A stretch of 64,000 nucleotides of DNA from NCBI GenBank assembly GCA_002839185.1, contig PGXO01000005.1:186001-250000 (forward strand), given 5' to 3'. The DNA comes from Synergistetes bacterium HGW-Synergistetes-1 (GTDB taxonomy: Bacteria; Synergistota; Synergistia; Synergistales; Synergistaceae). Positions 49,127 through 64,000 of the stretch are shown one piece after another. Every line of letters starts with the position of its first letter. Within the stretch, counting starts at the first letter, position 1. A program made the position numbers and the translations under genes. Under the pieces are notes generated by a model. The model was not told the DNA's origin. It did no database searches and saw nothing but the letters and a program-made list of their open reading frames with translations.

Positions 49127-50089
49127 ATGAAAAAGCTTCCTTTCTTTCTTCCATTCGGCGGATGCAGGGGAAGATGTGTGTACTGCAGCCAAAACACAAT
49201 AACAGGCGCTTCAGAGATCCCTTCGTCTGAATATGTTTCCTCAGTTTTAAGTGAGCTCGATGAACCGAGAGAGGTTTGTTTTTTCGGAGGGTCTTTCTGC
49301 AGGTTCGGTATTTCAAAAGTCAAAGAGTATCTCGATTCTGTAGTAAAGTATGCACCAGAAGGAAGCCGGATACGTTTTTCAACATACCCCGGAGATCTCA
49401 GCGACATTTCAATGAGAAACCTCATAAAAATCTACCCTATCTCATGCATAGAACTTGGTATACCTTCTCTTGATCCCAATGTTCTCTCTTTGTGCAAAAG
49501 GGAGACTGATCCTGATACAGTTCTCAATGATATAAAAACCATAATGAACGAGTCTCTTCCGCTCGGAGTCCAGATGATGATCGGTCTGCCCGGCCAGACA
49601 AAAGAGAGCAGCATCAACGATCTGAAAAATCTGGCTGGGATCAAGGGGGCCATAGCGTGGGATTTGAGACTTTATCCATGTCTGGTCCTTGAAGGAACTG
49701 AACTTGAGGATATGATGACCAAAGGGAGCTATATTCCTCTTACTCTGGACCAGGCTATCGAATGGGGCGGTATTTTCATTGACAGGGCAGTTTCTTTGGG
49801 ATTCAATCCGATAAGGATAGGACTTCAGGAATCTGAACTGCTTGCATCAAAGGTCAAAGGAGGGCCGCATCATCCGGCCTTAGGGGAGATGATAGCATCG
49901 GAATCCCTAGTAAGGAAACTGACCAGAAACAACTGGACAGGTCCATGGATTGTCCCTGAAGAGCACATTTCAAAATTCACCGGACATGGGTGCTTTGGAC
50001 TCAGGCGTTTGGCTGAGCTTACCGGTACAACAACAACTGCAGTATCAGAAAAGCTATCTTTTTTTCCTCCTGCTGGAAAAATACTCTGA
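49127..50089 (+). CDS. Radical SAM protein, Elp3-like
   Basis: About 320 residues. Radical SAM cluster C-R-G-R-C-V-Y-C at residues 13-20 of the chosen start, then V-C-F-F-G-G-S-F-C, I-E-L-G-I-P-S-L-D, Q-M-M-I-G-L-P-G-Q-T and L-R-L-Y-P-C-L-V-L-E-G-T-E-L-E, a set characteristic of Elp3/COG1243-like radical SAM enzymes without the acetyltransferase domain. Substrate unknown. The start is uncertain: the ATG at 49127 has only a weak upstream signal, and in-frame TTG and ATG codons at 49109 and 49085 overlap the protease gene. It is in line with XRE and ImmA genes and precedes a flavin oxidoreductase gene. Confidence 0.8.
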   Translation: MKKLPFFLPFGGCRGRCVYCSQNTITGASEIPSSEYVSSVLSELDEPREVCFFGGSFCRFGISKVKEYLDSVVKYAPEGSRIRFSTYPGDLSDISMRNLIKIYPISCIELGIPSLDPNVLSLCKRETDPDTVLNDIKTIMNESLPLGVQMMIGLPGQTKESSINDLKNLAGIKGAIAWDLRLYPCLVLEGTELEDMMTKGSYIPLTLDQAIEWGGIFIDRAVSLGFNPIRIGLQESELLASKVKGGPHHPALGEMIASESLVRKLTRNNWTGPWIVPEEHISKFTGHGCFGLRRLAELTGTTTTAVSEKLSFFPPAGKIL

Positions 50090-50224
50090 CACCGGATCAT
50101 ATCTTCTCCCGCAAAATATCAACAGAATCAAAACAATAAAGATTTTAGATTGCAGAAATTGCGCTGTCTTCTGCGTAATATTTGTTATAGATTATTCACA
50201 GTTTTTATGAAAGGACAGTTGCAC

Positions 50225-51379
50225 ATGGATAAAGCCGAAAAAATTAATTCACTGTTCTATGGATTCGAACGATCATCCTTTAAAGCAAGCAACAGATTCG
50301 TCCGTTCTGCCACGCACCTTGGCGGAGCTGATGAGGCTACAGGCGAAATTTCCATTGCCGAGATAAAAAGGCACTCAGAGATCGCAGCAGGCGGTACAGG
50401 CACACTGATTACCGGTCTGGCTTTCATAAGCCATGAAGGGAAATCTTTTAAAAGAGAGTGGGGACTTCATACCGACGAGAGGATAAATGACGTTGGCAAG
50501 CTATCCGAAGAAGTCCATAAATTTGGTTCCAACCTTATAGTTCAGATATGCCACGGCGGCGGACAGCGCGAAGCTTCCGTTGCTGAAGGAACAGTATCTT
50601 TTTCGCCCTCTGGCGGGATCCATCCGATGTGTGATTTTGAAACAACCCCCCTTTCAAAGGATGGCATCAGAAAGGTAGCAGAAGATTTCGCCGCAGCTGC
50701 GCTCAGAGCAAAGAAGGGCGGAGCTGACGGAGTAGAGATACATGCAGGACATGGATTCCTTCTGACGCAGTTCCTCTCACCTTCGATAAACAAAAGAGAT
50801 GACGAATACGGCGGATCACTGGAAAACAGATCTAGGATATTTTATGAAATACTGGAAGATGTAAGGCGCTCTGTCGGAGAGGGTTTCAACATTTGGTTCA
50901 AGATAAGCATTGCGGAAGGCACTGAAAATGGTTACGGCCCCGAGGACGGTACAGCGCTTTCCATAGGCCTTTTGAAAAGAGGGGCAGACGGCATAGATGT
51001 TTCTTCCGGCACGAGCTATGCCGGAGCAATGAACTCTCCCAGCACTCTGGGGGTATCAGCCGGCGAATCTGAGGCTCCATTTGCGGAATATGCCAGGGAG
51101 TTAAAAATACATGCATCCGACAGACAGATAATAATTCTCACAGGAGGACTCAGAAGCCTTCCAGTGATGGCTGAACTGATACATAACAAAACTTGTGATC
51201 TTCTTGCTTTGAGTCGTCCTTTCATCGCGGAACCGGATCTGATAAACAGGTGGCGTGAAGAAGATGCCAGGCCGACTGCGTGCATTTCATGCAACGCCTG
51301 CTTCAAAACCTCGAAGTATGGACTTATAGAGTGCCCCATACTAAGGGACAGAAATGAAGGAAACTGGGATCCTCTTTAA
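50225..51379 (+). CDS. NADH:flavin oxidoreductase (Old Yellow Enzyme family)
   Basis: 384 residues, one FMN TIM barrel. S-N-R-F-V-R-S-A-T-H, V-Q-I-C-H-G-G-G-Q, G-V-E-I-H-A-G-H-G-F-L-L-T-Q-F-L-S-P and R-D-D-E-Y-G-G-S-L-E-N-R-S-R are standard family motifs with the H-x2-H/N catalytic pair. The C-terminus ends with four cysteines C-I-S-C-N-A-C-x10-C, as in 2,4-dienoyl-CoA reductase-like enzymes with a 4Fe-4S cluster, but the following FAD/NAD domain is missing, so it needs a separate electron partner or is a remnant. Start at 50225 has AAAGGACAG upstream. The 135-base gap separates it from the radical SAM gene. Confidence 0.88.
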   Translation: MDKAEKINSLFYGFERSSFKASNRFVRSATHLGGADEATGEISIAEIKRHSEIAAGGTGTLITGLAFISHEGKSFKREWGLHTDERINDVGKLSEEVHKFGSNLIVQICHGGGQREASVAEGTVSFSPSGGIHPMCDFETTPLSKDGIRKVAEDFAAAALRAKKGGADGVEIHAGHGFLLTQFLSPSINKRDDEYGGSLENRSRIFYEILEDVRRSVGEGFNIWFKISIAEGTENGYGPEDGTALSIGLLKRGADGIDVSSGTSYAGAMNSPSTLGVSAGESEAPFAEYARELKIHASDRQIIILTGGLRSLPVMAELIHNKTCDLLALSRPFIAEPDLINRWREEDARPTACISCNACFKTSKYGLIECPILRDRNEGNWDPL

Positions 51380-51513
51380 ATCTTCATCCATCAAGGGATC
51401 ATAAACTTTGAAAAGGTATGAACAGGGGCAAAGACATATTTCGAACTGACCGACTGTTGATTTCCATTTGATATAAATATTTTTACGTATTTTCACTGAA
51501 CTAACCGGACCAA

Positions 51514-51544
51514 AAGTTGACTAATGTTGACAAGCTTATCCGGT
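51514..51544. promoter_or_regulatory. Inverted repeat flanking the RpiR-family gene -35
   Basis: ACCGGA (51514-51519) and TCCGGT (51539-51544), perfect six-base arms, with the -35 hexamer between them. A second pair AACTT/AAGTT lies just downstream of the -10. Either could be an autoregulatory site. Confidence 0.4.
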
Positions 51545-51555
51545 GAGACTAAACT
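51527..51555 (+). promoter_or_regulatory. Promoter of the RpiR-family regulator
   Basis: TTGACA (51527-51532), 17-base spacer, TAAACT (51550-51555), 60 bases before the start codon. Confidence 0.6.
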
Positions 51556-51615
51556 TGTAATAAAGTTCAGAAATGAAATCAGCAGTTGACCAATAACAAT
51601 AAGGAGTGTTACCAA

Positions 51616-52482
51616 ATGGACAGCACACAGCTTCAGAACCTGCTTATGGAAAGGGCTCATACGATGCCCAACAAAGCAAGGCGTGTAGCAGAATATCTTC
51701 TCGCAAACATGCGTGAAGCCTCTTTTCGTTCTATAGGAGATATTGCAGAAGAGCTTAAAGTATCAAAAGCACAGCTGGTAAGAGTAGCACAAATGCTTGG
51801 TTTCTCCGGTTACGCAGAGCTAAAGAGCTGTCTTCAGAAAGCCATTCTGGAACAGATCAACCCTGCTGCCCTTCTTGCCAGAGCGGTAAGCAGCGGGGAC
51901 AGTTTTCCGGATAGTCTTTACAAAGCAGAGCATGCCAACCTTGATGACACGATGGCACAGCTGTCACCGGAGGACACGGATAAATTCTGTGAACTTGTCC
52001 GATCTGCAAACACTATTTACTGTGTTGGGTGGGGCATTTCATCCCTTGTCGTTGAACTCCTCCAGATGCGGCTCTCAGTAATGGGAAGAAAAGCTGTATT
52101 CGTACACAGAGGCAGTCTCTCGATGTGGGAACAGGCCAGGTGCATCGGGGAGGACGATCTGGTAGTGGTCTGCGAGCTGCCAAGCTATGCTGTGGAAGTT
52201 ACCGAAGCTGTTGAGATAGCTCATAAAAATGGTGCAAAGGTAGTTACAATAACTGACAGTGCTGCTGCTCCTGTGTGCAGGACTGCAGAACTTTCATTTT
52301 TTGTCTCTGCAAACAGTCCGACTTTCGGAAGCAGCATAATAGGTCCGCTATTCCTGACGCATGTTCTTGCTTCTGCACTTGCTATAACGCTTGAGGCAGA
52401 TGCGAAAAAACATCTTGAAGAACAGGCTGAGTTCCTCCATGACGAGAGGATCTTCCATCCCATATTCGGCCTCAGATACTAA
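51616..52482 (+). CDS. MurR/RpiR family transcriptional regulator
   Basis: 288 residues. HTH_6 domain (about 1-77) with S-F-R-S-I-G-D-I-A-E-E-L-K-V-S-K-A-Q-L-V-R-V-A; SIS domain (about 115-260) with I-Y-C-V-G-W-G-I-S-S and a ligand region G-A-K-V-V-T-I-T-D-S-A. These regulators sense sugar phosphates or related metabolites. AAGGAGTG lies seven bases before the ATG at 51616. No sugar gene is adjacent, so its target may be elsewhere or be itself (see the dyads upstream). Confidence 0.9.
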   Translation: MDSTQLQNLLMERAHTMPNKARRVAEYLLANMREASFRSIGDIAEELKVSKAQLVRVAQMLGFSGYAELKSCLQKAILEQINPAALLARAVSSGDSFPDSLYKAEHANLDDTMAQLSPEDTDKFCELVRSANTIYCVGWGISSLVVELLQMRLSVMGRKAVFVHRGSLSMWEQARCIGEDDLVVVCELPSYAVEVTEAVEIAHKNGAKVVTITDSAAAPVCRTAELSFFVSANSPTFGSSIIGPLFLTHVLASALAITLEADAKKHLEEQAEFLHDERIFHPIFGLRY

Positions 52483-52504
52483 TCTCGATATTAAATTTTT
52501 GAAC

Positions 52505-52548
52505 ATATAAAAGAGAGCCGCCTTTATTCAGGCGGCTCTCTTTTATAT
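52505..52548. terminator. Bidirectional terminator between the RpiR-family and HicB-like genes
   Basis: A 19-pair perfect stem, arms 52505-52523 and 52530-52548, core AGAGAGCCGCCT and AGGCGGCTCTCT, six-base loop, with A/T flanks on both sides. It serves both convergent genes; the last codons of the HicB-like gene lie inside it. Confidence 0.9.
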
Positions 52549-52806
52549 TCTGCACTTCACTATTATTACTTCGCCCACATCAGCTGCTTCAAGATCGTCA
52601 GCTTTCGGCGGCCCAGGGATAGGCCACTCAGCTTCAATGCAGCACTTCAGGTACTCTTTTAAAACTTCAGGAGCCCTTTTTATCACATCTTCCCTGTCCT
52701 CTCCCTCTACCCAGCAGCCAGACAGTCCAACAAAGTTTGCTGCCCAGAGCCTTCCTTCGTCGTAGCCGAAGGCCAGAACAGCAGGATAAACGTACTCTTT
52801 CTCCAT
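52543..52806 (-). CDS. HicB-like protein, no HicA partner
   Basis: 87 residues. The fold matches the HicB family (partial RNase H-like): Y-V-Y-P-A-V-L-A-F-G-Y, A-A-N-F-V-G-L-S-G-C-W-V-E-G-E-D-R-E-D-V-I. HicB antitoxins neutralise the HicA RNase, but no HicA (dsRBD-like, about 60 residues) is adjacent, and no C-terminal DNA-binding domain is seen. It starts at the base after the M19 dipeptidase stop codon, so they are co-transcribed. I regard it as a HicB-family orphan rather than a toxin-antitoxin pair. Confidence 0.75.
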   Translation of the reverse strand: MEKEYVYPAVLAFGYDEGRLWAANFVGLSGCWVEGEDREDVIKRAPEVLKEYLKCCIEAEWPIPGPPKADDLEAADVGEVIIVKCRI

Positions 52807-53793
52807 TTATCCCAGCACCCTTTCAATGACTCGCATAAAGTTGCCCCCTGTAAAAGCGCAGTAATCTCCAGGACTCAATTTTTTCTTCATAGGTACGATA
52901 AATCGTCTCGCTGCGTCCAGATGGTCAGTAAAGAGATCCTTTTGCCGGCTGTCGTCATTCCCCATGCTAAGCGATGCTATACAGTCACACAGATCCAGAC
53001 CCAATCCCACATTATCTATCCCCGCTACTTGGGTTATATGCTGAAGATGTTCAAAAAACTTATCTGTATTTCGATCAGCTTCGTTGTCCGATACGAATGG
53101 TGAATATGCATTAAGTCCGACAACTCCCCCTGATTCTGCTATCATCTTTATCTGGTCATCTTTGAGGTTTCTCGCTGATCCGCACAGCGCCCTGCAGTTT
53201 GAGTGCGAAGCTATAAATGGAGCCTTAATCAACTCTGCGACCTCATAAAAGCCAGGATCGTTCAGATGGCTCACGTCGATGACCATGCCCATCTTCTGAG
53301 CTTCCATGACCAGTTCCCTTCCAAATTTAGTAAGGCCTCCAGGATGTCTGGGCGCATCTGCAGGGTCGAAGCTGCTGCCGTCACCGGCATAGTTCCTCCT
53401 TGACCAAGTAAGTCCGACAAGCCTTACGCCCAGATCATAAAAAGTTCTAAGGAGAAAGATGTCGTTACCCAGAGGTTCAGCTCCTTCAAGAGAGAGAAAT
53501 AATCCAATTTTGCCCTTTTCTGAAGCAGCTTTCGCTTCAGACGAATTTCTGCAGAGGGAAAAGAGCTCTCGCGATTCTTCCAGTTCTTCCTTCAACGCTG
53601 ATATTTGATCCAATGCGTTTCGAAGGGCACCCTCGGGCAGAAAAATATCGGAAATATAAAGGGAACATATGATCGTACTTATTCCTGCTTCTTTTAAATT
53701 TTGGAAATGTCTTCTTTCAAGGACCTTCCGTTCCCCTTTTTTCCTGTAGCTGAGGACATCAAGGAGCACGTCAAAATGTGCATCAAGTAGCAT
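52807..53793 (-). CDS. Membrane dipeptidase (peptidase M19)
   Basis: 328 residues. M19 zinc-site features are H-F-D near the N-terminus (H-x-D), L-S-L-E-G-A-E (bridging Glu), I-D-V-S-H-L-N-D, S-H-S-N-C-R-A-L-C and G-L-D-L-C-D. It is without a signal peptide, so cytosolic. It hydrolyses dipeptides, often with a D-residue. I chose the ATG at 53793 with AGGGAT nine bases upstream. The HicB-like gene follows immediately. Confidence 0.9.
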   Translation of the reverse strand: MLLDAHFDVLLDVLSYRKKGERKVLERRHFQNLKEAGISTIICSLYISDIFLPEGALRNALDQISALKEELEESRELFSLCRNSSEAKAASEKGKIGLFLSLEGAEPLGNDIFLLRTFYDLGVRLVGLTWSRRNYAGDGSSFDPADAPRHPGGLTKFGRELVMEAQKMGMVIDVSHLNDPGFYEVAELIKAPFIASHSNCRALCGSARNLKDDQIKMIAESGGVVGLNAYSPFVSDNEADRNTDKFFEHLQHITQVAGIDNVGLGLDLCDCIASLSMGNDDSRQKDLFTDHLDAARRFIVPMKKKLSPGDYCAFTGGNFMRVIERVLG

Positions 53794-53880
53794 GTTATAC
53801 ATATCCCTCACCCCATATCATGACGTTGAACATATCATTTATTGATAAAACAGATCCAGCATCCTTTAACTGACGTTGAC

Positions 53881-54726
53881 TCAATCCTCCTCCGACTGAC
53901 AGATCCTGATCCTCTGTGATCCAAGGTCAGTCATGTCAAACCATAAAAGTTCACCTTTTAAACCTTTTCCCGTAGCTGCCAGTATCTTGATAGCCTCAGA
54001 GACCTCCAGGGAAGCGATAAATGCAGGAGTAAAAGGTGGATTTCCCGTCTCTGTCTCGACCCCTTTGTCAGGAACGTCGTCATTTTCCCACAATGGTCTG
54101 TCTCCCGGATAAAAGACACCGATCTGCCCGAACATACCTCCAATGGCTCCGTGGACAAAAGGTATCCCCAGCTCACGGCAAACTATTGAGGCATTTCTGC
54201 GGCTCCTGTTATTGTCAAGTGCGTCTATTACTACTGAAGAACCCTCAAGGAGCTCTCTTCCGTTTTTTTCATCCAGGAACGTAACCCATGCAAAGGTATC
54301 CACGACACTGTTGACAGATGCTACCCTGTCGGCCGCAGCCAGTGCTTTGGACTTTCCAATGTTTCCCTCTGTAGAGAAAAGCTGACGGTTCAGGTTGTTG
54401 TCATCGAAGACATCAGGATCGATCATCACTATCTCTCCGACCCCAGCTCTCGCCAACATTTCTATGATCCAGCCTCCAAGACCGCCGCAACCGATTACCG
54501 CAGCTCTGGAACCAAGCAGTTTTATCTGACCCTGGATCCCGATAGTACCGATATTTCTCTGATACCTTGAAGGGCAGATACCGTTTTTTAACGCTGTGAT
54601 CTCTACATCACGGGGCTTCAGTCCAAGTTCTGAAGCGAACCTTCGGCAAGTTAGGAAAGGGATCACTTTTATCCCTCCTCTGTCCTTCGAATTGATCTGC
54701 AAATTTTCGACCAGGTCTGCAGGCAA
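53881..54726 (-). CDS. ThiF/MoeB/HesA-family adenylyltransferase, orphan
   Basis: 281 residues. N-terminal extension (1-52) of unknown fold, then the E1-like domain: R-Y-Q-R-N-I-G, G-C-G-G-L-G-G (79-85) ATP loop, D-N-N-L-N-R-Q arginine/glutamine finger and K-S-K-A, D-A-L-D-N-N-R-S-R-R. Family members adenylate the C-terminus of a small sulfur carrier. The usual C-x2-C zinc site and the Cys-containing G-V-L-G-P segment are not visible, although T-P-A-F-I-A-S-L-E-V-S-E-A aligns in place. The start is TTG at 54726 with GGGAGG eight bases upstream. No sulfur carrier gene is adjacent. It is divergent from mnmA. Confidence 0.8.
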   Translation of the reverse strand: MPADLVENLQINSKDRGGIKVIPFLTCRRFASELGLKPRDVEITALKNGICPSRYQRNIGTIGIQGQIKLLGSRAAVIGCGGLGGWIIEMLARAGVGEIVMIDPDVFDDNNLNRQLFSTEGNIGKSKALAAADRVASVNSVVDTFAWVTFLDEKNGRELLEGSSVVIDALDNNRSRRNASIVCRELGIPFVHGAIGGMFGQIGVFYPGDRPLWENDDVPDKGVETETGNPPFTPAFIASLEVSEAIKILAATGKGLKGELLWFDMTDLGSQRIRICQSEED

Positions 54727-54845
54727 ACTTGACACCTCCCTATAAAATCTTATCGGTTGTATTTTTATAGTATACCCGAAAAAAATGATCGGTTTTCTTG
54801 ATGATCATATTATGGGGCACTCTCATTTTGATGTAAAATATTAGA

Positions 54846-55946
54846 ATGAAATATATTGTAAAAACAACATCGTTGCTCAATAGTTCCAAATGGAAAAACT
54901 CCCACTCAAAAAAAGCACTGGTACTTATGAGCGGAGGGGTCGATTCAAGCGCTGCCGCTCTTTTGCTCATGAAGGAAAATTATTCCCTTGCCGGTATGAC
55001 GATGGAGATAACTGAGAGCGAAGAAGCTCTTGCAACTGAATCTGCGGCCTCTGTGTGCAAAGAATTGTCCATTCCACACTTTTCAGTGAACATAAGTGAA
55101 GATTTCAAAAAAAATGTAATACTTCCTTTCTGCAGCTCATATAGCCAGGGACTGACACCCAACCCCTGCGCTGACTGTAATGAAAGGATAAAATTCGGCG
55201 TGCTCTGGGAGGCCGCAGAAGAGCTCTTTGGAAATGATTTTTCAGTTGCTACCGGCCATTACGCCAGGATCATCAAAAAAGATGACAGACACTACCTGGC
55301 GGCAGGAGCAAATAAAGCAAAAGACCAGTCATATTTTTTAAGCGGGATCCCAGCGAAAAAGATGCAGAGGATACTTTTCCCGCTGGGGGACTTTAAGTCA
55401 AAAGAGGAGACCAGGGAGTTGGTAAGGACTTCAGGTCTGGCAGTATCCGAGCGCCCTGAAAGCATGGAAATATGCTTTGCAAATGAGGATGGATACCGGG
55501 CCATTATATGCCGCGATCAGCAGCCAGGACCAATAACAGACACTTCAGGAAAAGTTTTGGGAGAACATAAAGGGATAGGAGGATACACTCTGGGGCAAAG
55601 GAAGGGGCTGGGCATCGCATCAAAGCATCCTCTTTTCGTTATATCGATAGTTCCGGAGACAAATACTGTTGTAGTAGCTTCAAGGGCAGAGGCTTTCCGA
55701 TCAGAGGTCACAGCAGGGTCAGTCAACATACTGGCACCTGATTATCTGAGAGAAGGCCTTCCTTTACTTGGTAAGATACGATCCCAGGGAGACCCTATGC
55801 CGTGCCGCGTCCTCTCCGTAGATCATGCCTGCCTGACAGTTCGGTTTTCAGAGCCAATTTTTGCTCCGGCACCCGGTCAAAGGCTCGTCATCTATACTGA
55901 TGAGGGATATGTTGCTGCCGGAGGAGTGATAAAAATCTCCCCGTGA
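54846..55946 (+). CDS. mnmA: tRNA-specific 2-thiouridylase MnmA
   Basis: 366 residues. PP-loop S-G-G-V-D-S-S (29-35), N-P-C-A-D-C-N-E-R-I-K-F with C108 (catalytic nucleophile) and C210 in S-M-E-I-C-F (persulfide carrier), and G-Q-R-K-G-L-G-I in the central domain. It thiolates U34 of tRNA Lys, Glu and Gln, using sulfur from a cysteine desulfurase. The N-terminal 20 residues are longer than in most MnmA. The ATG starts 119 bases from the divergent ThiF gene. It is followed by a 217-base gap and the sensor gene. Confidence 0.93.
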   Translation: MKYIVKTTSLLNSSKWKNSHSKKALVLMSGGVDSSAAALLLMKENYSLAGMTMEITESEEALATESAASVCKELSIPHFSVNISEDFKKNVILPFCSSYSQGLTPNPCADCNERIKFGVLWEAAEELFGNDFSVATGHYARIIKKDDRHYLAAGANKAKDQSYFLSGIPAKKMQRILFPLGDFKSKEETRELVRTSGLAVSERPESMEICFANEDGYRAIICRDQQPGPITDTSGKVLGEHKGIGGYTLGQRKGLGIASKHPLFVISIVPETNTVVVASRAEAFRSEVTAGSVNILAPDYLREGLPLLGKIRSQGDPMPCRVLSVDHACLTVRFSEPIFAPAPGQRLVIYTDEGYVAAGGVIKISP

Positions 55947-56163
55947 TCAATGAGAACGCACAGATGTTTCAATCATCCAGACCGAATAAAACACAATACG
56001 CAAACACGTTCCATCAACAATGAAATTTTTCCCATAATAAATTTGCACAGATATTTCTATTCCAATGTTTATTTTCGTCTATCTATTATTCAAAACCTGA
56101 TTTATCATAGTAGCGTCATCTGTTACAATATCAACAATTCAAGTCACCTATGGGGGGTTGCTC

Positions 56164-57834
56164 ATGACACTGCGCAGAAAGACTCAGATCGCATTAGGGA
56201 TCACATTGCTCCTCATACTTCTTATGCTAGACCTTACTTTTACTAATTTCCTAAGACGATCTGCCGAACAGACAGACAGGGAAAGGATCACACTAAACCT
56301 ATCAAGGGCTGTAGTATCGATCAACGCTGAGGCAAAGACCCTATCCGCCATAGCCGCAAATTGGGCGCATTCTGATGCGACCTGGGACTACATGAACGGA
56401 CGCAACGCCAATTACGCCGCTGAGACCCTCAACAGAGATGCTCTGACTGAGATCGGGATATCTTCAATGATATTCATTGACAGCGGGAACATGGTGCGCC
56501 TCTTCAAGGACTTCAGCTCAGATGATGAACCATCCTCCCCTGAGAGTGAATTCGTTGCAATATTCGACGACCCCAGGAACCAGTATCTTTTGGACTATAC
56601 GGGACCTACAGGTACAAGCGGGATAGTTCTAAAGGAAAACCAGCCGGTACTTTTCACAGTAAAACCGATCCTTACATCCGACATTCAGGGACCTCCTGCA
56701 GGCAACCTTATAGTCACTCGGACCATCAGCCCAAAACTTATAGCAAATATTTCGAGGAACCTCCACTTTAATTTTGCCATAGAACCAACGACAGAAAACG
56801 AAAAGCAGAATTCTGATAAACTTCCGCTGGTCCTGATCGAGGATGCTGAGAAGAACGCGACAACGATATCCGCAAGGATGCTCGTAAAAGATCACAGCGG
56901 CACCCCCTCCTTCTGGGTCAGGGGAATAGACAAAAAGGAAGACATTGCAGCTGCTGAAAAAAAGATCCAATTTCTTTTTCTGATATTTGGAGTCATTGCT
57001 GTATTGCTTTCCTTCCTTTATGACTTTTTCTTCAAACATGCGTTTTCAAACAGAATGAAGAGACTCCAAAGAGAGGTCGAAGCGATAAGAGACGAAAAGG
57101 GACATAAAGGCATAGTTACAGTTGATTCTAAAAAAGACGAGATCAACAGCCTGCAGAGAACTTTGAGCGATGTCATGGCTTACCACGATTTCAAGCAGGA
57201 ACATAAAAGTAAGATGGACAGCATCAGCCTGATGGTTTACGAACGTTTCGCTCAGGCAGGAAACCGCCTTTGCTACAAGACTCTTGAGGACATCGCGACT
57301 GCCTTCTCCCCCGGCGATGAAAAATTCAGGAACTCGCTCCCCCGTTCAGCAAAAATGACAGTAACGTTCTGCGATAAGCTTAAGCTGCCGGATGAAGAAA
57401 AATTCTATGCGTATCTTGGAGCCCTTTTCAGCAGAATAGGACTTCTTGGCATACCCTTTTCGGTACGCAACAAAACTACCGAACTCTCTCCCGTCGAACT
57501 GAGGGAGTATCACAAGTACCCTATATTATCCAAGGATTTCCTTGAGTCAGTGGAGTTGCTCCGCCCTGCTACGCAAATCCCGCACTGCTGGAACGAAAAA
57601 TGGGATGGCACAGGATTCCCAAAGGGGCTAAGCGGAAGCGCAATTCCTTTGACAGCACGCATCTTTGCTATCGTTGACACATGGAATGAGATGACCAGGC
57701 CATGGCTTGGAAGAAAGCTTCCGACTCAGGAAGAGGTAGAACTGAAACTCCGTGAAATGGCGGGAACAAAATTCGACCCCTATCTCACAGAACAGTTTAT
57801 ACAATTACTGCATGATGAGAGGAAAACTATCTGA
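56164..57834 (+). CDS. CHASE4 sensor with degenerate HD-GYP domain
   Basis: 556 residues. TM helix 1 (about 8-28), periplasmic CHASE4-like domain (35-262) with the typical W-A-H-S-D-A-T-W-D-Y-M, TM helix 2 (268-290), HAMP-like linker, then an HD-GYP-like domain (350-553). The expected metal-binding H-D in L-L-H-D-I-G-K-I-G-I-P is changed to L-F-S-R-I-G-L-L-G-I-P (423-424), and the HHE motif is C-W-N-E, while D-G-T-G-F-P and A-R-I-F-A-I-V-D-T remain. It should not hydrolyse cyclic di-GMP; it may bind it or signal by contact. GGGGGG lies six bases before the ATG at 56164. The next gene starts one base after the stop. Confidence 0.8.
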   Translation: MTLRRKTQIALGITLLLILLMLDLTFTNFLRRSAEQTDRERITLNLSRAVVSINAEAKTLSAIAANWAHSDATWDYMNGRNANYAAETLNRDALTEIGISSMIFIDSGNMVRLFKDFSSDDEPSSPESEFVAIFDDPRNQYLLDYTGPTGTSGIVLKENQPVLFTVKPILTSDIQGPPAGNLIVTRTISPKLIANISRNLHFNFAIEPTTENEKQNSDKLPLVLIEDAEKNATTISARMLVKDHSGTPSFWVRGIDKKEDIAAAEKKIQFLFLIFGVIAVLLSFLYDFFFKHAFSNRMKRLQREVEAIRDEKGHKGIVTVDSKKDEINSLQRTLSDVMAYHDFKQEHKSKMDSISLMVYERFAQAGNRLCYKTLEDIATAFSPGDEKFRNSLPRSAKMTVTFCDKLKLPDEEKFYAYLGALFSRIGLLGIPFSVRNKTTELSPVELREYHKYPILSKDFLESVELLRPATQIPHCWNEKWDGTGFPKGLSGSAIPLTARIFAIVDTWNEMTRPWLGRKLPTQEEVELKLREMAGTKFDPYLTEQFIQLLHDERKTI

Positions 57835-57835
57835 A

Positions 57836-58414
57836 ATGAATATCGTTGACGCAAGAGGGCAGGATTGTCCCAAACCTGTAATATTAACAAAAGAGACTGT
57901 TGAAAAGGGATGCAGGTCTTTTGTCGTTTGGGTCGACAACGAAGTCGCAGCATCAAATGTTCAAAGATTTCTTGAAAGCAAAGGATTCATGGTTAAAAAA
58001 GAGTACGGCGAAGAATCCATCGTACTTGAAGCTAAAATTGAGTCCAAAGAGGGCGAATCAACTCCTCAAAAAAAAGGGTCAATAGGCATTATGTTCACTT
58101 CTGACAAAATTGGGGCCGAATCGGGAGGACTCGGAGACGTCCTTATGAAATCCTGTCTCGGCACCTTGGTGCAGAGTGAAAAAGCCCCCTCTGTCATTGC
58201 TTTGATGAACAGCGCCGTGAAGATGGCTTTAAGCGGATCCTCCTGCCACGACTATCTTTGCGAACTAAGGGACCGTGGGACCCTTATTCTGGTCTGCGGG
58301 ACATGCACGAAACACTTTGGGATCACTGAGGCTGTTTCGGTGGGGGTGATCTCAAACATGTTTGAGATCACAGAGGCAGTTTTCGGTACATCAAAACCTG
58401 TAGTGATAGGCTGA
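57836..58414 (+). CDS. yedF: Sulfurtransferase-like selenium metabolism protein YedF
   Basis: 192 residues. N-terminal SirA/TusA-like domain (1-70) with D-A-R-G-Q-D-C-P-K-P and the transfer cysteine C11; C-terminal DsrE-like domain (85-192) with V-C-G-T-C-T-K-H-F-G and C154, C157. YedF is found with selD and selenium genes and is presumed to handle selenium or persulfide groups. Two cysteine-rich domains in one chain are the family norm. It starts one base after the sensor gene stop and is followed two bases later by the cysteine desulfurase. Confidence 0.88.
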   Translation: MNIVDARGQDCPKPVILTKETVEKGCRSFVVWVDNEVAASNVQRFLESKGFMVKKEYGEESIVLEAKIESKEGESTPQKKGSIGIMFTSDKIGAESGGLGDVLMKSCLGTLVQSEKAPSVIALMNSAVKMALSGSSCHDYLCELRDRGTLILVCGTCTKHFGITEAVSVGVISNMFEITEAVFGTSKPVVIG

Positions 58415-58416
58415 TC

Positions 58417-59577
58417 ATGTCAATATATCTTAATAATGCCGCAACCACCTGGCCAAAGCCCCCGTGTGTACCTGATGCTATTTATGACTTCATAGCAAAC
58501 AGGGGAGCAAATGTAGCCAGGGGTTCGGCTTCCATGAGGGACATCCAGAGCCTTGACAATGTCTTTACATGCAGGCAGAAACTGGCGGAACTGTTCGGCG
58601 GTTATCAGAAATGCGACCCGAGGTTCATAACCCTCACTTCCAACGTAACGGAATCAATAAATATGATCATCAAGGGCTTCCTTAAACCAGGTATGAGAGC
58701 TGTGACCTCCTCTATGGAACACAATTCCGTACTCAGGCCTCTGAGAAGAGCCGAAAATGAGGGTGTCGCACTTGATATCATACAGTGCAGCCTGAAAGGA
58801 TATCTGGACCCGGCACTGCTGAAAAAAAACCTTTCCGGGGGCGCGGACATCGCGATAATAAACCACTGCAGCAATGTCAGCGGATCCCTCCAGAATATTC
58901 AGGACATTGCCGAAGTGTGCAGGGCATCAAATGTCCCGCTCGTGGTCGATTGTGCCCAGACAGCTGGGATAATTGGGATCAGCGCGCAGGCTCTCGGAGC
59001 CGCAGCTCTATGCTTCACAGGACATAAGGGACTCTTCGGCCCGCAAGGTACAGGAGGTATCGTCTGGGATCCGGAGTTCGCAAAGATATGTTCTCCCCTT
59101 TTTGAAGGAGGAACAGGAAGCATTTCTCATGAGGAGTTCCAGCCCTCACAGATGCCTGACAAGTTCGAGGCAGGGACACCAAACCTGCCTGGCATAGCCG
59201 GACTGCTTGCATCTTTAGAGTGGATAGAAAATGAAGGGATAGGCAAAATAAGGAAACATGAGGATCGTTTGGGCAAAATGCTTGAAGAGGGACTAATGAA
59301 AATAAACGGACTCAGAATAATCGGTCCCGGATCTGACGACCCAAGGCTTCCGGTTTATTCCGTAAACATAAGGGGAATGGACAACGCAAAACTTGCCCGT
59401 GACCTTTCCGACATCTACGGGATCGAGACACGACCGGGACTTCACTGCGCTCCTCTTGCACACAGAACGTTAGGGACGTTCCCTGAAGGAGCACTTAGGA
59501 TATCCCCCGGCTATTTCAACACAGCAGACGACATCGATCTTGCTGTCAGTGCACTCACGGAGCTTGCAAAGAATTAA
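58417..59577 (+). CDS. Cysteine desulfurase/selenocysteine lyase family protein
   Basis: 386 residues, class V aminotransferase fold. PLP-binding histidine H102 (S-S-M-E-H-N-S), D178, Schiff-base lysine K204 in F-T-G-H-K-G, and catalytic cysteine C344 in R-P-G-L-H-C-A-P-L-A-H. It begins I-Y-L-N-N-A-A-T-T. It fits the group of desulfurases that occur beside YedF and SelD. It should give persulfide or selenide from cysteine or selenocysteine to YedF or MnmA. It begins two bases after yedF, so they are co-transcribed. Confidence 0.9.
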   Translation: MSIYLNNAATTWPKPPCVPDAIYDFIANRGANVARGSASMRDIQSLDNVFTCRQKLAELFGGYQKCDPRFITLTSNVTESINMIIKGFLKPGMRAVTSSMEHNSVLRPLRRAENEGVALDIIQCSLKGYLDPALLKKNLSGGADIAIINHCSNVSGSLQNIQDIAEVCRASNVPLVVDCAQTAGIIGISAQALGAAALCFTGHKGLFGPQGTGGIVWDPEFAKICSPLFEGGTGSISHEEFQPSQMPDKFEAGTPNLPGIAGLLASLEWIENEGIGKIRKHEDRLGKMLEEGLMKINGLRIIGPGSDDPRLPVYSVNIRGMDNAKLARDLSDIYGIETRPGLHCAPLAHRTLGTFPEGALRISPGYFNTADDIDLAVSALTELAKN

Positions 59578-59602
59578 AGGTTCTCGCGGAATATTTTTTA
59601 GA

Positions 59603-59887
59603 TCAGCCTGATATGAATCCTTTTTCAATGAGTATCTGACGGGACTCTGCATCGGCGGGACGGAAACCTTTACTCAGGAGATCCCTTATATATGTCCCGT
59701 TATACGTAAAGCAGAAAATCATATTTGCCAGCCATAAAGTGAGAACGCTTGCAACAAACATTATCACTGCCCACTTTGCATCGCCCCTGAATATCGGAAC
59801 ACAAAAACCAAAAAAGAAGACTGTCCAGCTGAAACCGACCTTAGCTGTGCGAAGCTGGCCTGACTGGTCCTCAAGCCTAATTATCAT
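59603..59887 (-). CDS. Small membrane protein, DUF2628-like
   Basis: 94 residues with two hydrophobic helices (about 20-36 and 42-60). Features are F-S-W-T-V-F-F-F-G-F-C-V-P-I-F-R-G-D and a Y-I-R-D-L-L-S-K-G-F-R-P segment, as in DUF2628 proteins. Role unknown. It overlaps the start-side of the next small membrane gene by 11 bases; both are transcribed against lemA. Confidence 0.6.
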   Translation of the reverse strand: MIIRLEDQSGQLRTAKVGFSWTVFFFGFCVPIFRGDAKWAVIMFVASVLTLWLANMIFCFTYNGTYIRDLLSKGFRPADAESRQILIEKGFISG

Positions 59888-60113
59888 TTTTGGGCCCTTC
59901 TATTCTCTCTTCTTGCTCCAGGGCCATTATTGCAGCCTTTGATGTACCCAGCCATGTAATGCCTATAAAGCAGGCCATCACCGGAAGTGAGACATATTTG
60001 AATTCAATGCCGCCCTTCATGTAGACGGCAAAAAATAGAATGAGCAGGACAACAGATGAAGCAAGGAATACTTTTGAGATCTTGTTGATCAATCTGGCTG
60101 CACGAAGTGTCAT
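59877..60113 (-). CDS. Small membrane protein of unknown function
   Basis: 78 residues, start M-T-L-R-A-A-R-L at 60113 with GGGTGG seven bases upstream. Two hydrophobic helices (about 15-31 and 39-58), then an acidic tail. No known family. It is upstream of the DUF2628-like gene with an 11-base overlap, and divergent from lemA. Confidence 0.55.
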   Translation of the reverse strand: MTLRAARLINKISKVFLASSVVLLILFFAVYMKGGIEFKYVSLPVMACFIGITWLGTSKAAIMALEQEERIEGPKNDN

Positions 60114-60221
60114 AATATCCACCCTTTGAGAAATATAAGGAACACTGATAAATAATACCACAGGGCTGCTATAAAAAAGGTATAATTTGCATGGATCAAA
60201 ATAACAGGAGGGGGATTAACA

Positions 60222-60770
60222 ATGATGATGTATTTACTGGCAGCAGCTGCAGTTATAGGTTTATGGCTAATGACCACGTACAACGGCCTCGTAAAGCTTC
60301 GCAACCTGATGCAGGAAGGGTGGAGCGGCATAGACGTACAGCTGAAAAGGCGTTCCGACCTGATACCCAATCTCGTTGAGACAGTCAAGGGTTATGCTTC
60401 TCACGAGAAGGAGACACTTCAGGGGGTAACTAACGCCCGTGCCGCTGTAATGCAGGCGGGAAACGATCCTGAAGCAAGGCTGCAGGCTGAAAACGCCCTG
60501 ACTGGAACACTGAGGACTCTCTTTGCTGTAGCAGAAAACTATCCGGAGCTTAAGGCGAATACGAATTTTCTTGATCTTCAGCAACAGCTGGGAACGATCG
60601 AAAATGAGATACAGATGTCCAGACGTTACTACAACGGAACTGCAAGAAACCTTAATACTGCCATCCAGCGTTTTCCTGCTGTTTTGATTGCAAGACAGTT
60701 CGGTTTTAAAGAAGCTCCATTCTTTGAGGCGGAGGAAGAGGCGAGAGATAACCCGAAGGTTTCATTTTAA
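60222..60770 (+). CDS. lemA: LemA family protein
   Basis: 182 residues. N-terminal membrane helix (2-18), then a cytosolic or periplasmic helical domain with the family landmarks Y-N-G-L-V-K-L-R-N, R-S-D-L-I-P-N-L-V-E-T-V-K-G-Y, and Y-N-G-T-A-R-N-L-N-T-A-I-Q-R-F-P. GGAGGGGG precedes the first of three ATG codons. It precedes the DUF2207 gene, the usual LemA partner. Function unsettled. Confidence 0.93.
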   Translation: MMMYLLAAAAVIGLWLMTTYNGLVKLRNLMQEGWSGIDVQLKRRSDLIPNLVETVKGYASHEKETLQGVTNARAAVMQAGNDPEARLQAENALTGTLRTLFAVAENYPELKANTNFLDLQQQLGTIENEIQMSRRYYNGTARNLNTAIQRFPAVLIARQFGFKEAPFFEAEEEARDNPKVSF

Positions 60771-60803
60771 ACAGCATTTTGTGATACTTAGGGGAGGGAA
60801 AAT

Positions 60804-62717
60804 ATGAGAAACGGGACAAACTATCTTTTAAAAATAACTGTACTGTTATGCGCAGCTGTTTTTGTTATATTATCAGGAGCTAAGTTGACTGAAGCAAGGG
60901 AAGCTTTCAACAGGTTCAACGCTGACATAATAATAAATGAGAACAGCTCGATCGAAGTGACGGAAGAAATCTTGGTCAACGTAGAGAATATCGAGATCAA
61001 CAGAGGCATAATTCGATCGCTTCCTGTGGAATACAGGGACGAAAAAGGCAATTCAACAGAACTCGGATTAGAGATAAGAGATATAACGCTGGACGGACAG
61101 GATATCCCCTGGAGTTCAGTGAGGTCAGGCATAAATGTCGATGTAAAGATCGGTGACCCGGATAAGATCATATCCAGGGGACTCCATACCTTTCTGATAA
61201 GATACCGGGTCGAAAGGCACATAGGATTTTTTGAGGACCACGATGAACTTTACTGGAACGTAACAGGAAAAGATTTTTCTTTTCCTGTGCTTGAAGCATC
61301 ATGCAGAGTCGCGCTTCCGGGAAAGAGTTTCGGAGAGGGATTCAACACGATAGAGTGGTATGTGGGCCAGTATGGGACAAAGGGAGATAACAGCAGAGCG
61401 CGCCAGGATTCAGGAAGAGTTTTCACAGTCGGGACACTTCAGCCGGGAGAGGTTTTTACTGTAGTCTACACCTGGCCAAAAGGACTGGTCACACCGCCGC
61501 CTCCTCCTGCGAGAGACAACGAAAAAGCTCAGGGAGGGATCGCGGCAGCAACTTTCGCGTTGATCTCCGGATGGTTCTGGTTCGCCTGGAAAAAGTGGGG
61601 CAAAGATCCGGATAAAAAGACAGTGATTCCGCTTTTCTACGCACCCGATGGTACATCACCTGCATTTCTGAGGTACGTAAGGGATATGCGGCTCGATCAG
61701 ACAGGCTTTACTGCTGCAATAATCGGACTGGCTGTTAAGGGCGCCATTAAGATCCTGGAAGTTGAAGGAAAAGAAACCTTCTTTGGAAAGGGCAAGGAGC
61801 ACTTTGTGCTATATGAAAAAGATACGGAACCGGAAAAACTTCAGCCAGAAGAAGAGGCCCTTATGATGCAGCTTTTTCCGGGAAGCATAGACAGCGTGGC
61901 TCTGGTACAAGATAACGGAGACATAATTTCAGGTGCGATGAGAAGCCTGGCAAGGAATCTCAGAAACGCAAACTCCGCCATCTTTACCAGAAACACTGAT
62001 AAGATGATCCCAGGCCTTGCTTTGTATGGAATTGGAACAGCAGCAAGCTATCCATTCAGCGGGGAATATCCCTTAAACACTCTCATGGCCGGAGTTTGCG
62101 GACTGCTCATAATTGCACTGGGAATGAGGCTGAGCAAAGCTGCAAATACCGGAGGCCAGAACATAAGACAGTTCCTTGGAAGGGCTTTTCCTGCCCTTGC
62201 GGTGGGTCTAGTAGGAGCTATAGCACTCGGGGGAGAGGGGCTGTCTCCCTTTACATTTGTGTTTTTCGTCGCTTCAGCAGCCGTCATTGCTGTGATGCGG
62301 CCTCTTATGGTCTCAAGGACCGCAAAGGGCAGCAGTATTTTGAGCGACGCGGAGGGTCTTAAGCTCTATATGGACACAGCAGAAAAAGAGCGGCTTGAAA
62401 TGTTCAACCCACCGGAAGAGACCCCTGAGCTCTTTGAAAAACTTCTTCCTTATGCGCTTGCACTTGATGTTGCAAAAACGTGGGGCAACAGGTTTGAGAG
62501 CGTTTTGACAAAAGCCGGTTATAAGCCCGAATGGTATTCGGGACCTTCACCATATTTGTTCCTGAATGGTTCAGGCCTGTATAATTTCTCATCAAGCCTT
62601 GGCAGCAGCCTGGGACAAAGCATGGCTCCGCAGTCTGCCCCCGGGACATCCTCAGGAATGGGAGGCGGCGGTTTTGCCGGAGGCGGAGGTGGAGGCGGCG
62701 GCGCAAAGGGCTGGTAA
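60804..62717 (+). CDS. DUF2207 membrane protein with Gly-rich C-terminus
   Basis: 637 residues. Signal peptide or anchor (about 8-27), DUF2207 beta domain (30-230), a membrane helix near 245-260, a soluble domain, two or more helices near 420-490, and a C-terminal tail of Gly repeats (G-G-G-G-F-A-G-G-G-G). It is paired with lemA (33-base gap) as in many bacteria. Function unknown; it is probably at the inner membrane with LemA. The low-complexity tail is a family feature, not a sequencing error. Confidence 0.85.
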   Translation: MRNGTNYLLKITVLLCAAVFVILSGAKLTEAREAFNRFNADIIINENSSIEVTEEILVNVENIEINRGIIRSLPVEYRDEKGNSTELGLEIRDITLDGQDIPWSSVRSGINVDVKIGDPDKIISRGLHTFLIRYRVERHIGFFEDHDELYWNVTGKDFSFPVLEASCRVALPGKSFGEGFNTIEWYVGQYGTKGDNSRARQDSGRVFTVGTLQPGEVFTVVYTWPKGLVTPPPPPARDNEKAQGGIAAATFALISGWFWFAWKKWGKDPDKKTVIPLFYAPDGTSPAFLRYVRDMRLDQTGFTAAIIGLAVKGAIKILEVEGKETFFGKGKEHFVLYEKDTEPEKLQPEEEALMMQLFPGSIDSVALVQDNGDIISGAMRSLARNLRNANSAIFTRNTDKMIPGLALYGIGTAASYPFSGEYPLNTLMAGVCGLLIIALGMRLSKAANTGGQNIRQFLGRAFPALAVGLVGAIALGGEGLSPFTFVFFVASAAVIAVMRPLMVSRTAKGSSILSDAEGLKLYMDTAEKERLEMFNPPEETPELFEKLLPYALALDVAKTWGNRFESVLTKAGYKPEWYSGPSPYLFLNGSGLYNFSSSLGSSLGQSMAPQSAPGTSSGMGGGGFAGGGGGGGGAKGW

Positions 62718-62783
62718 TTTTAAGCTCTCAGTTCCCGACAGATCTCCCTGACAGCAGAATATTCATCAGTTTTTTGGTAAATT

Positions 62784-62828
62784 AAAGAGGTGCTTTTTGA
62801 AACACAATGTTTCAAAAAACACCTCTTT
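62784..62828. terminator. Terminator shared by the DUF2207 and GH18 genes
   Basis: Almost perfect stem: AAAGAGGTG (62784-62792) with CACCTCTTT (62820-62828), and TTTTTGAAACA (62794-62804) with TGTTTCAAAAA (62808-62818), one mismatch, three-base loop. Convergent genes end on both sides. Confidence 0.88.
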
Positions 62829-62853
62829 TCATTGACCTACCCTGATAAGTTTC

Positions 62854-64000
62854 TTACCTGTTCTTTACTACAGTCCTTATCATATCCCAGACATCGGGAG
62901 TCTCGTGTCCCTTCCTCCACCCCGCTACCCCGGCAAGACGGTACTTATCAAGGATCGAGAGCTTGGTTTTGATGGAATCCCTGTTTTCTACCCATACCTT
63001 ATAGGTCTTTCCCTCTGAAAGATACGAATAGAAATACTGCCCCTTGTCACTTAGCCATACCGGAGAGAGCCCTCTCTGGGAAATAATTGAATCGGACTCG
63101 GCCATAGTTAGGGTAGAGCCTTTGACTTTCACCTTTCCCTGACCTGCCGGAGTCTCCTCCCACTTTCTCATGTAAAATGGAACGCCCAATATCAGCTTTG
63201 CAGGAGGCACACCCTCTTCTATTGTTTTCTGCACTGCACGTTCGACCCATGGCATCGAAGCAACAGAACCTGCCCTCGGGGAGGTTCTCCAATGTTCGTC
63301 ATAGGCCATGAGCATTACGTAATCCACGTGCTTCGAAAGAGCTGCCCTGTCATGGCTTTTTGAAAGATTACTGTTTCCCGGCACATGAACATCTACTGAG
63401 CTGATAAGCCCCTGACCTTTCAGATAACCGCTGAGCAGCGAGATGAAACGTACATATTTGTCCCTGTCGGCAGCATCAACATTTTCAAAATCTACGTTTA
63501 TTCCGTCAAAACCATACAGCTTCGAATAACAGAGAAGTCTTGCAATAAAGATATTTACAGCAGCTGTATCGTTGAAAAACCTGGAAGTGTTCTCTTTACT
63601 GAAACCGTTTGAGACAAGGGGCCATATCCGGTATCCCTTTTCGCGGGCGGCCTCAACATAGGCTGCTGAAGTCCTGTTTGCCATGTTTCCGCTGCCGTCG
63701 GTTAAGTTGAACCATGTCGGGGAGATAACATCGAGTCCGTCAATGCGGTCTTCCGCTCCAAGATCAGGATTGCCCCTTGTTATGTGGGCCCATGCAAGGG
63801 TGATCCGTTTATCTTTCAAAGACGCCTGATCAGACTTTTTCCTGTTCAAAGGAGTATTGACAGTGATCCTTTTGAGTTCAAGACCTGCGTTTGTCTCCTC
63901 TGCAGCGATCCCCGTGAGTTGTTCCAGTCCTGTTACGTTGAAATAAGAGATACCCTCGTTGTCCATCGAGGGGAAATAGAGGGTAATGGAGCTTCCTGCC
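62854..64000 (-). CDS. Glycoside hydrolase family 18 protein, 5' end outside the window
   Basis: At least 381 residues, and the open frame continues past 64000 with A-G-S-S-I-T-L-Y-F-P-S in frame before the first ATG in view (63966), so the start is outside. The first 45 residues resemble the stalk-type domain of copper amine oxidase-like proteins. The rest is a GH18 (SpoIVA/YaaH-like) domain with catalytic D-G-I-N-V-D-F-E and V-M-L-M-A-Y-D-E-H, G-V-P-F-Y-M-R. It may hydrolyse chitin or peptidoglycan glycans. The catalytic Glu is present. Confidence 0.85.
   Translation of the reverse strand, partial: AGSSITLYFPSMDNEGISYFNVTGLEQLTGIAAEETNAGLELKRITVNTPLNRKKSDQASLKDKRITLAWAHITRGNPDLGAEDRIDGLDVISPTWFNLTDGSGNMANRTSAAYVEAAREKGYRIWPLVSNGFSKENTSRFFNDTAAVNIFIARLLCYSKLYGFDGINVDFENVDAADRDKYVRFISLLSGYLKGQGLISSVDVHVPGNSNLSKSHDRAALSKHVDYVMLMAYDEHWRTSPRAGSVASMPWVERAVQKTIEEGVPPAKLILGVPFYMRKWEETPAGQGKVKVKGSTLTMAESDSIISQRGLSPVWLSDKGQYFYSYLSEGKTYKVWVENRDSIKTKLSILDKYRLAGVAGWRKGHETPDVWDMIRTVVKNR

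Follow-up and report, generated by a model that had tools for sequence, protein, structure and literature searches.

The stretch of DNA analysed here (the window; 64,000 nucleotides, G000:C5:186001-250000) belongs to a near-complete genome, G000 (15 contigs, 99.93% complete), the closest named relatives of which, in a scan of named genomes, are Synergistaceae MAGs such as UBA6101. Three closely packed genes of the window are described (Table 1): one for a predicted membrane sensor with a degenerate HD-GYP domain, yedF, and a gene of the group II cysteine desulfurase/Sec-lyase-like type (csd). The sensor frame starts with ATG, and GGGGGG lies 5' of the start codon. Its stop codon (57832-57834) is one base away from the yedF ATG at 57836, and the yedF stop codon, ending at 58414, is two bases away from the desulfurase ATG at 58417, in agreement with the spacing given in the initial annotation. 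A search of window positions 50000-64000 gave no Rfam match to an RNA element, and the matches from a promoter and terminator scan were not above chance. Just upstream of the sensor (53881-55946), a ThiF/MoeB-like gene is divergent from that of an MnmA-type thiouridylase; the position of mnmA varies among genera.

Table 1. Features of the sensor-yedF-desulfurase locus (window coordinates).
Feature	Position	Strand	Evidence
CHASE4 - TM - stalk - pseudo-HD-GYP sensor gene	56164..57834	+	556 aa ORF, Pfam, AF2
TM helix 1, approx. residues 8-30	56185..56253	+	Hydrophobic run; AF2 helix 3-68
CHASE4 periplasmic sensor domain, residues 53-206	56320..56781	+	PF05228 2.3e-23; Foldseek PA2072 CHASE4 8z5k TMt 0.63
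TM helix 2, approx. residues 266-287	56959..57024	+	Hydrophobic run inside AF2 helix 262-310
Cys370 codon	57271..57273	+	Invariant in 21/21 orthologs; sits in 4-residue insertion
Pseudo-HD-GYP domain, residues 373-553	57280..57822	+	PF13487 3.2e-28; pLDDT mostly 81-95; dN/dS about 0.07 (few pairs, high dS)
Ser423-Arg424 replacing His-Asp pair	57430..57435	+	Alignment
Trp476-Asn477-Glu478 replacing His-His-Glu	57589..57597	+	Alignment
Gly484-Phe485-Pro486 (GFP for GYP)	57613..57621	+	Alignment
yedF (TusA/SirA-like + DsrE-like)	57836..58414	+	TIGR03527 157 bits vs cut-off 110
YedF CPKP motif, residues 11-14	57866..57877	+	Sequence
YedF CGTC motif, residues 154-157	58295..58306	+	Sequence
Group II cysteine desulfurase/Sec-lyase-like gene, resembles SclA	58417..59577	+	TIGR01977 393 bits vs cut-off 377

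The periplasmic domain is assigned to CHASE4 by its PF05228 score (83 bits against a cut-off of 26.2) and its place between two TM helices; the AF2 model gives it long helices at both ends and matches the CHASE4 structures 8z5k, 8z84 and 8wct in Foldseek. The Pfam HD_5 match (3.2e-28) covers residues 393-540, and it is the only one of its kind, with no match to the HDOD family at E<=1. The AF2 model of the sensor, built from 22 sequences, has a mean pLDDT of 80.5 and a pTM of 0.47; the HD blocks lie mostly at 81-95 and the linker below 50, and the spatial order of the domains is unreliable. Compared with known HD-GYP structures, the HD-GYP part of the model retains the fold (Foldseek TMt 0.75 for 4r8z and 0.74-0.77 for 9rbz, with a further match to 4mcw). 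The stretch D481-G-T-G-F-P486 is kept, and the initial annotation was correct in regarding this and other fold residues as preserved.

In PmGH the metals are bound by E185, H189, H221, D222, H250, H276, H277 and D305 (PMC4159591). The first seven of these eight ligands are replaced in all 21 Synergistaceae orthologs of our alignment: E185 by K, N, R or G, H189 by A, S, C, T or G, H221 by S, A or N, D222 by R or K, H250 uniformly by Y, H276 by W or C and H277 by N, K or R. The eighth, D305, is retained in 15 orthologs. The His-Asp pair, described at the outset as Ser-Arg, is indeed Ser423-Arg424 and does not reappear across the 21 orthologs. The HHE motif had been called lost; this holds for both histidines, now Trp476-Asn477, and not for the glutamate, since Glu478 is invariant. 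The GYP motif reads GFP in 20 of the 21, and PmGH tolerates replacement of this tyrosine by alanine (PMC4159591). At the old site the sensors have acquired new invariant or near-invariant residues, namely Tyr452, Asn508, Glu509, Arg512, Trp514, Gly516 and Cys370, the last in a four-residue insertion that is missing from PmGH and the intact homologs.

By sequence, the replacement of seven metal ligands in every ortholog points to a loss of c-di-GMP degradation, as was originally proposed. It is highly improbable that an unusual metal site still gives the sensor c-di-GMP phosphodiesterase activity. The general fold and the equivalents of D183, R192 and I294 of PmGH are still present, and RpfG is an accepted phosphodiesterase though two of its ligands differ from those of PmGH (PMC4159591), but in PmGH a single alanine change at any ligand other than E185 or D305, which takes in six of the seven positions lost here, left essentially no activity (PMC4159591). 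Furthermore, the similarly changed DvhD is inactive (PMC13090378).

The pseudo-HD-GYP domain is under strong purifying selection, with a dN/dS of ~0.07 for the HD part that equals that of the adjacent desulfurase (NG86, from few pairs and at high dS). Two other explanations were considered and excluded. A decaying pseudogene does not agree with this ratio or with a frame that is open in all orthologs, and a sequencing or alignment artefact does not agree with the concordance of 21 orthologs; the AF2 model yields an HD-GYP fold, and the substitutions are therefore not a product of misalignment. As a separate observation, G000 and G001 match at about 87-97% per 200 bases over yedF and csd (window 57801-60000) compared with 71-90% over the CHASE4 part of the sensor, with dS values of 0.16-0.30 and 0.78, respectively, a contrast for which recombination or gene conversion inside the operon is a possible cause.

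DvhD from Desulfovibrio vulgaris (PDB entries 9rbz, 9rc0 and 9rc2) is a transmembrane protein with a Cache-class periplasmic domain, a cytosolic stalk and a dead HD-GYP domain, as is the sensor; its HD and HH are SQ and MN, compared with SR and WN here, and it binds c-di-GMP (PMC13090378). It differs in having dCache and PAS domains and in controlling DvhG and adhesins (PMC13090378). A receptor of this type would take up c-di-GMP through its inactive HD-GYP domain and pass the signal either inside-out, to the periplasm, or to the selenium proteins. It fits a transmembrane protein whose metal site has degenerated while the fold is intact. DvhD has suffered the same kind of losses and still binds the nucleotide (PMC13090378), the sensor fold resembles c-di-GMP-bound 9rbz, the equivalents of Leu577 and Met646 of DvhD are kept, and 17 GGDEF matches were obtained in the genome of the window. 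However, we consider such a receptor improbable, because the recognition residues are replaced and because the sensor is retained in one genus, g13, where neither GGDEF nor EAL nor a further HD-GYP protein was detected. The DvhD contacts Arg650, Tyr652 and Tyr621 (numbers taken from our alignment, which reproduces the published residue letters) are also found in PmGH and the intact homologs. In the sensors the arginine (R314 in PmGH) is Trp in 20 of 21, Tyr652 is Gly in all 21 and Tyr621, the GYP tyrosine, is Phe in 20; E668 has become M, L or Q and K582 has become L, among other changes.

For c-di-GMP INDEPENDENCE, the g13 genome G019 (99% complete) has no GGDEF match over threshold (best E 0.16); in the profile search it also has no EAL match, and the sensor is its sole HD_5 protein. 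In its congener G152 no GGDEF, EAL or HD_5 match was detected beyond the sensor copies, and G020, a genome that is 66% complete, is likewise without detected c-di-GMP enzymes. Other sensor genera give up to 30 GGDEF matches, and the search therefore works. The initial annotation had implied a c-di-GMP-binding module, and both the residues and the genomes speak against this: c-di-GMP is probably not the ligand of the pseudo-HD-GYP domain, which in one genus would act independently of c-di-GMP enzymes. We note that G152 has two near-identical sensor loci (C85 and C200) in a MAG with 6% contamination; these are probably two strains.

The remodelled pocket, with its new Arg424, Arg512, Trp476, Asn477 and Glu509, could instead bind another small molecule, such as an oxyanion, a phosphorylated or selenium compound or another nucleotide, and relay its presence outward. 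The replacement appears to be coordinated, which is not expected of a decaying site: the metal-binding Asp222 has become Arg or Lys in all 21 orthologs, and Arg512, Glu509 and Tyr452 are both new and invariant. We nevertheless give this proposal little credence, as it has no ligand and no precedent, and the new residues could merely stabilize a metal-free fold.

Of 188 Synergistota genomes, 20 encode a full-length ortholog of the sensor; these represent ten genera, all in the Synergistaceae. No such ortholog was found among the 188 beyond this family, and horizontal spread outside it is not supported by this search. A further match from the phylum search, in G012, is an intact homolog and is not counted among the 20. 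Apart from the Synergistaceae orthologs, the named-genome scan returned only HD-domain relatives elsewhere. In a tree of HD domains the 21 sensors form one clade on a long branch with 100/100 support, which indicates a single origin. The clade groups with intact CHASE4-HD-GYP proteins of G012 and G009, to which it appears to be sister, and with a Chloroflexi sequence. The proteins of G012 and G009 share the full-length architecture of the sensor at 24-26% identity, but they have intact HD and HHE motifs, no Cys370 insertion and no yedF or desulfurase gene nearby. DvhD is found elsewhere in the tree; since it is not the nearest relative, the degeneration of the sensor looks independent of that of DvhD, and this placement is a further point against a DvhD-like receptor.

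Two of the 21 sensor genes are at contig ends, leaving 19 assessable loci, and in 17 of these the next gene on the same strand is an intact yedF, so the gene order seen in the window is kept in related genomes. In G011 the sensor is followed by a degenerate yedF and csd was not found; in G015 (66% complete) csd follows directly with no yedF between. The sensor-yedF gap ranges from about -14 to 150 bp and is often -14 to +3 bases. YedF scores over the cut-off in 18 of the 20 sensor genomes compared with 10 of 33 other Synergistaceae (Fisher 4e-5, a value that ignores phylogeny), and the near-complete G155 has neither sensor nor YedF, whereas both are present in its congener G011, YedF in degenerate form. 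In many sensor genomes synteny extends to the neighbouring M19 peptidase, ThiF-like and LemA genes, and vertical inheritance explains part of the conserved order. The trio nevertheless stays tight where the flanks vary, with mnmA before it and LemA, dihydroxyacid dehydratase and large ORF insertions after it. We regard the sensor-yedF order as moderate evidence, because the wider neighbourhood is also syntenic and the linkage is limited to the Synergistaceae. A second yedF in G005 (L050, C140, 1498-2064) has a response regulator gene and a TAXI-type TRAP substrate-binding gene as neighbours, with no sensor or desulfurase in that stretch; the contig could be misbinned.

A yedF gene adjoining one of the Sec-lyase family recalls the YedF-Sec lyase (SclA-type) module (PMC5322559; SclA, PMC13188914), and the window YedF is above the TIGR03527 cut-off with both CPxP and CGxC present. 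The desulfurase reaches 323 bits with the SclA model NF040779, below the cut-off of 525, and falls in TIGR01977. YedF has been linked to selenium through gene association, and a 2015 survey gives its function as unknown (PMC5322559). Sensorless relatives have yedF in selenium clusters of the classic kind: G009, G177 and G178 show the order activase-DUF3343-yedF-csd-yedE, with tusA after yedE in G009, and in the sensorless G028 and G037 yedF is near selA/selB. In contrast, the window pair follows the sensor, and yedE-tusA is elsewhere in G000 (C1:64585-65854). SelA is present in every sensor genome, with SelB beside it where checked. SelD and YedE were found in most sensor genomes; both were undetected in G004, G006, G011 and G016, which keep SelA (with SelB adjoining in G011 and G016), and the absence may be a real co-loss or reflect assembly gaps. 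As some sensor genomes are without detected SelD and YedE, selenium dependence is not strict. The SelD gene of G000 (C4:202930-203853, over the cut-off) has one in-frame TGA, and the same search found one inside the SelD open frame of 27 other genomes, which would fit the presence of selenocysteine in SelD throughout the order.

The YedF of G011 (L061, 7967-8557) has lost CPxP and CGxC (now TPAL and CELS) and has a very long branch, yet the sensor beside it is intact. It keeps K129 and M130, which are typical of sensor-linked YedFs. The tie of this signature to the sensor is suggestive but confounded with phylogeny, and one YedF without a sensor, that of G172, has K129 as well. Loss of the cysteine motifs next to an intact sensor argues, in this one 96% complete MAG, for a YedF that is kept not for chalcogen transfer but in another role, such as that of a partner.

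In our tentatively preferred interpretation, the sensor is a pseudoenzyme receptor that would contact the YedF/Sec-lyase pair and so pass on to it a signal received in the periplasm. In an ancestral Synergistaceae CHASE4-HD-GYP phosphodiesterase the metal site would have been lost first and the c-di-GMP recognition residues after it, and the degenerate sensor would have been recruited to a selenium module, upstream of its yedF-Sec-lyase pair. The ligand of the CHASE4 domain is most likely extracytoplasmic, with metals and heme as precedents, and the signal would travel via TM helix 2 and the stalk to the pseudo-HD-GYP domain. Contact of this domain with the cytosolic YedF and/or desulfurase may then gate the delivery or disposal of selenide or sulfane sulfur. 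Since the sensor persists where c-di-GMP signalling is not detectable, it probably controls the products of the two adjoining genes by other means, and its pairing in G011 with a degenerate YedF and no csd is what one would predict if YedF served in part as its binding partner. A more specific version, in which the c-di-GMP-independent receptor docks YedF-Sec-lyase at the membrane and gates selenium or sulfane sulfur traffic with the invariant Cys370 of the stalk as a redox or chalcogen switch, seems to us unlikely.

It is also possible, if on balance somewhat doubtful, that the genes are co-transcribed but mechanistically separate, the sensor having an output of its own and sharing the operon by inheritance or shared expression only. 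Such an arrangement agrees with the synteny of the wider neighbourhood across the Synergistaceae, with the persistence of the sensor in G011, despite a degenerate YedF and no csd, and in G015, where no yedF is adjacent, and with its presence in genomes lacking detected SelD and YedE. It agrees less well with a trio that stays together while the genes before and after it vary, with the lack of both sensor and YedF in G155, and with gaps so short that they suggest translational coupling.

Partial parallels to the sensor are known. PA2572 (YN-GYP) of Pseudomonas aeruginosa also has a degenerate HD-GYP domain and is regulatory with no detectable PDE activity (PMC3411652), but it is a REC-domain response regulator rather than a CHASE4 membrane sensor, and no linkage to selenium genes is described for it. 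PA2072/IsmP and PA0847 share the CHASE4 periplasmic domain but have GGDEF-type outputs; PA2072/IsmP controls its partner by protein contact (PMC13277305), which provides a precedent for signalling of this kind from a CHASE4 protein. Dead HD-GYP receptors are thus already known from DvhD and PA2572, and what is new is the linkage to selenium genes together with the loss of the nucleotide site. We found no paper in the open-access literature that joins HD-GYP to YedF or to selenium handling, in keeping with the earlier remark that no link between such a sensor and YedF had been described.

A receptor that travels with YedF names a testable partner for this protein and a possible signal. The sensor is also an example of selection maintained on an HD-GYP domain where c-di-GMP enzymes are undetectable, although the domain has apparently lost its catalytic function as well as its recognition of the nucleotide. 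Annotation of such sensors as 'HD-GYP' would falsely suggest c-di-GMP signalling.
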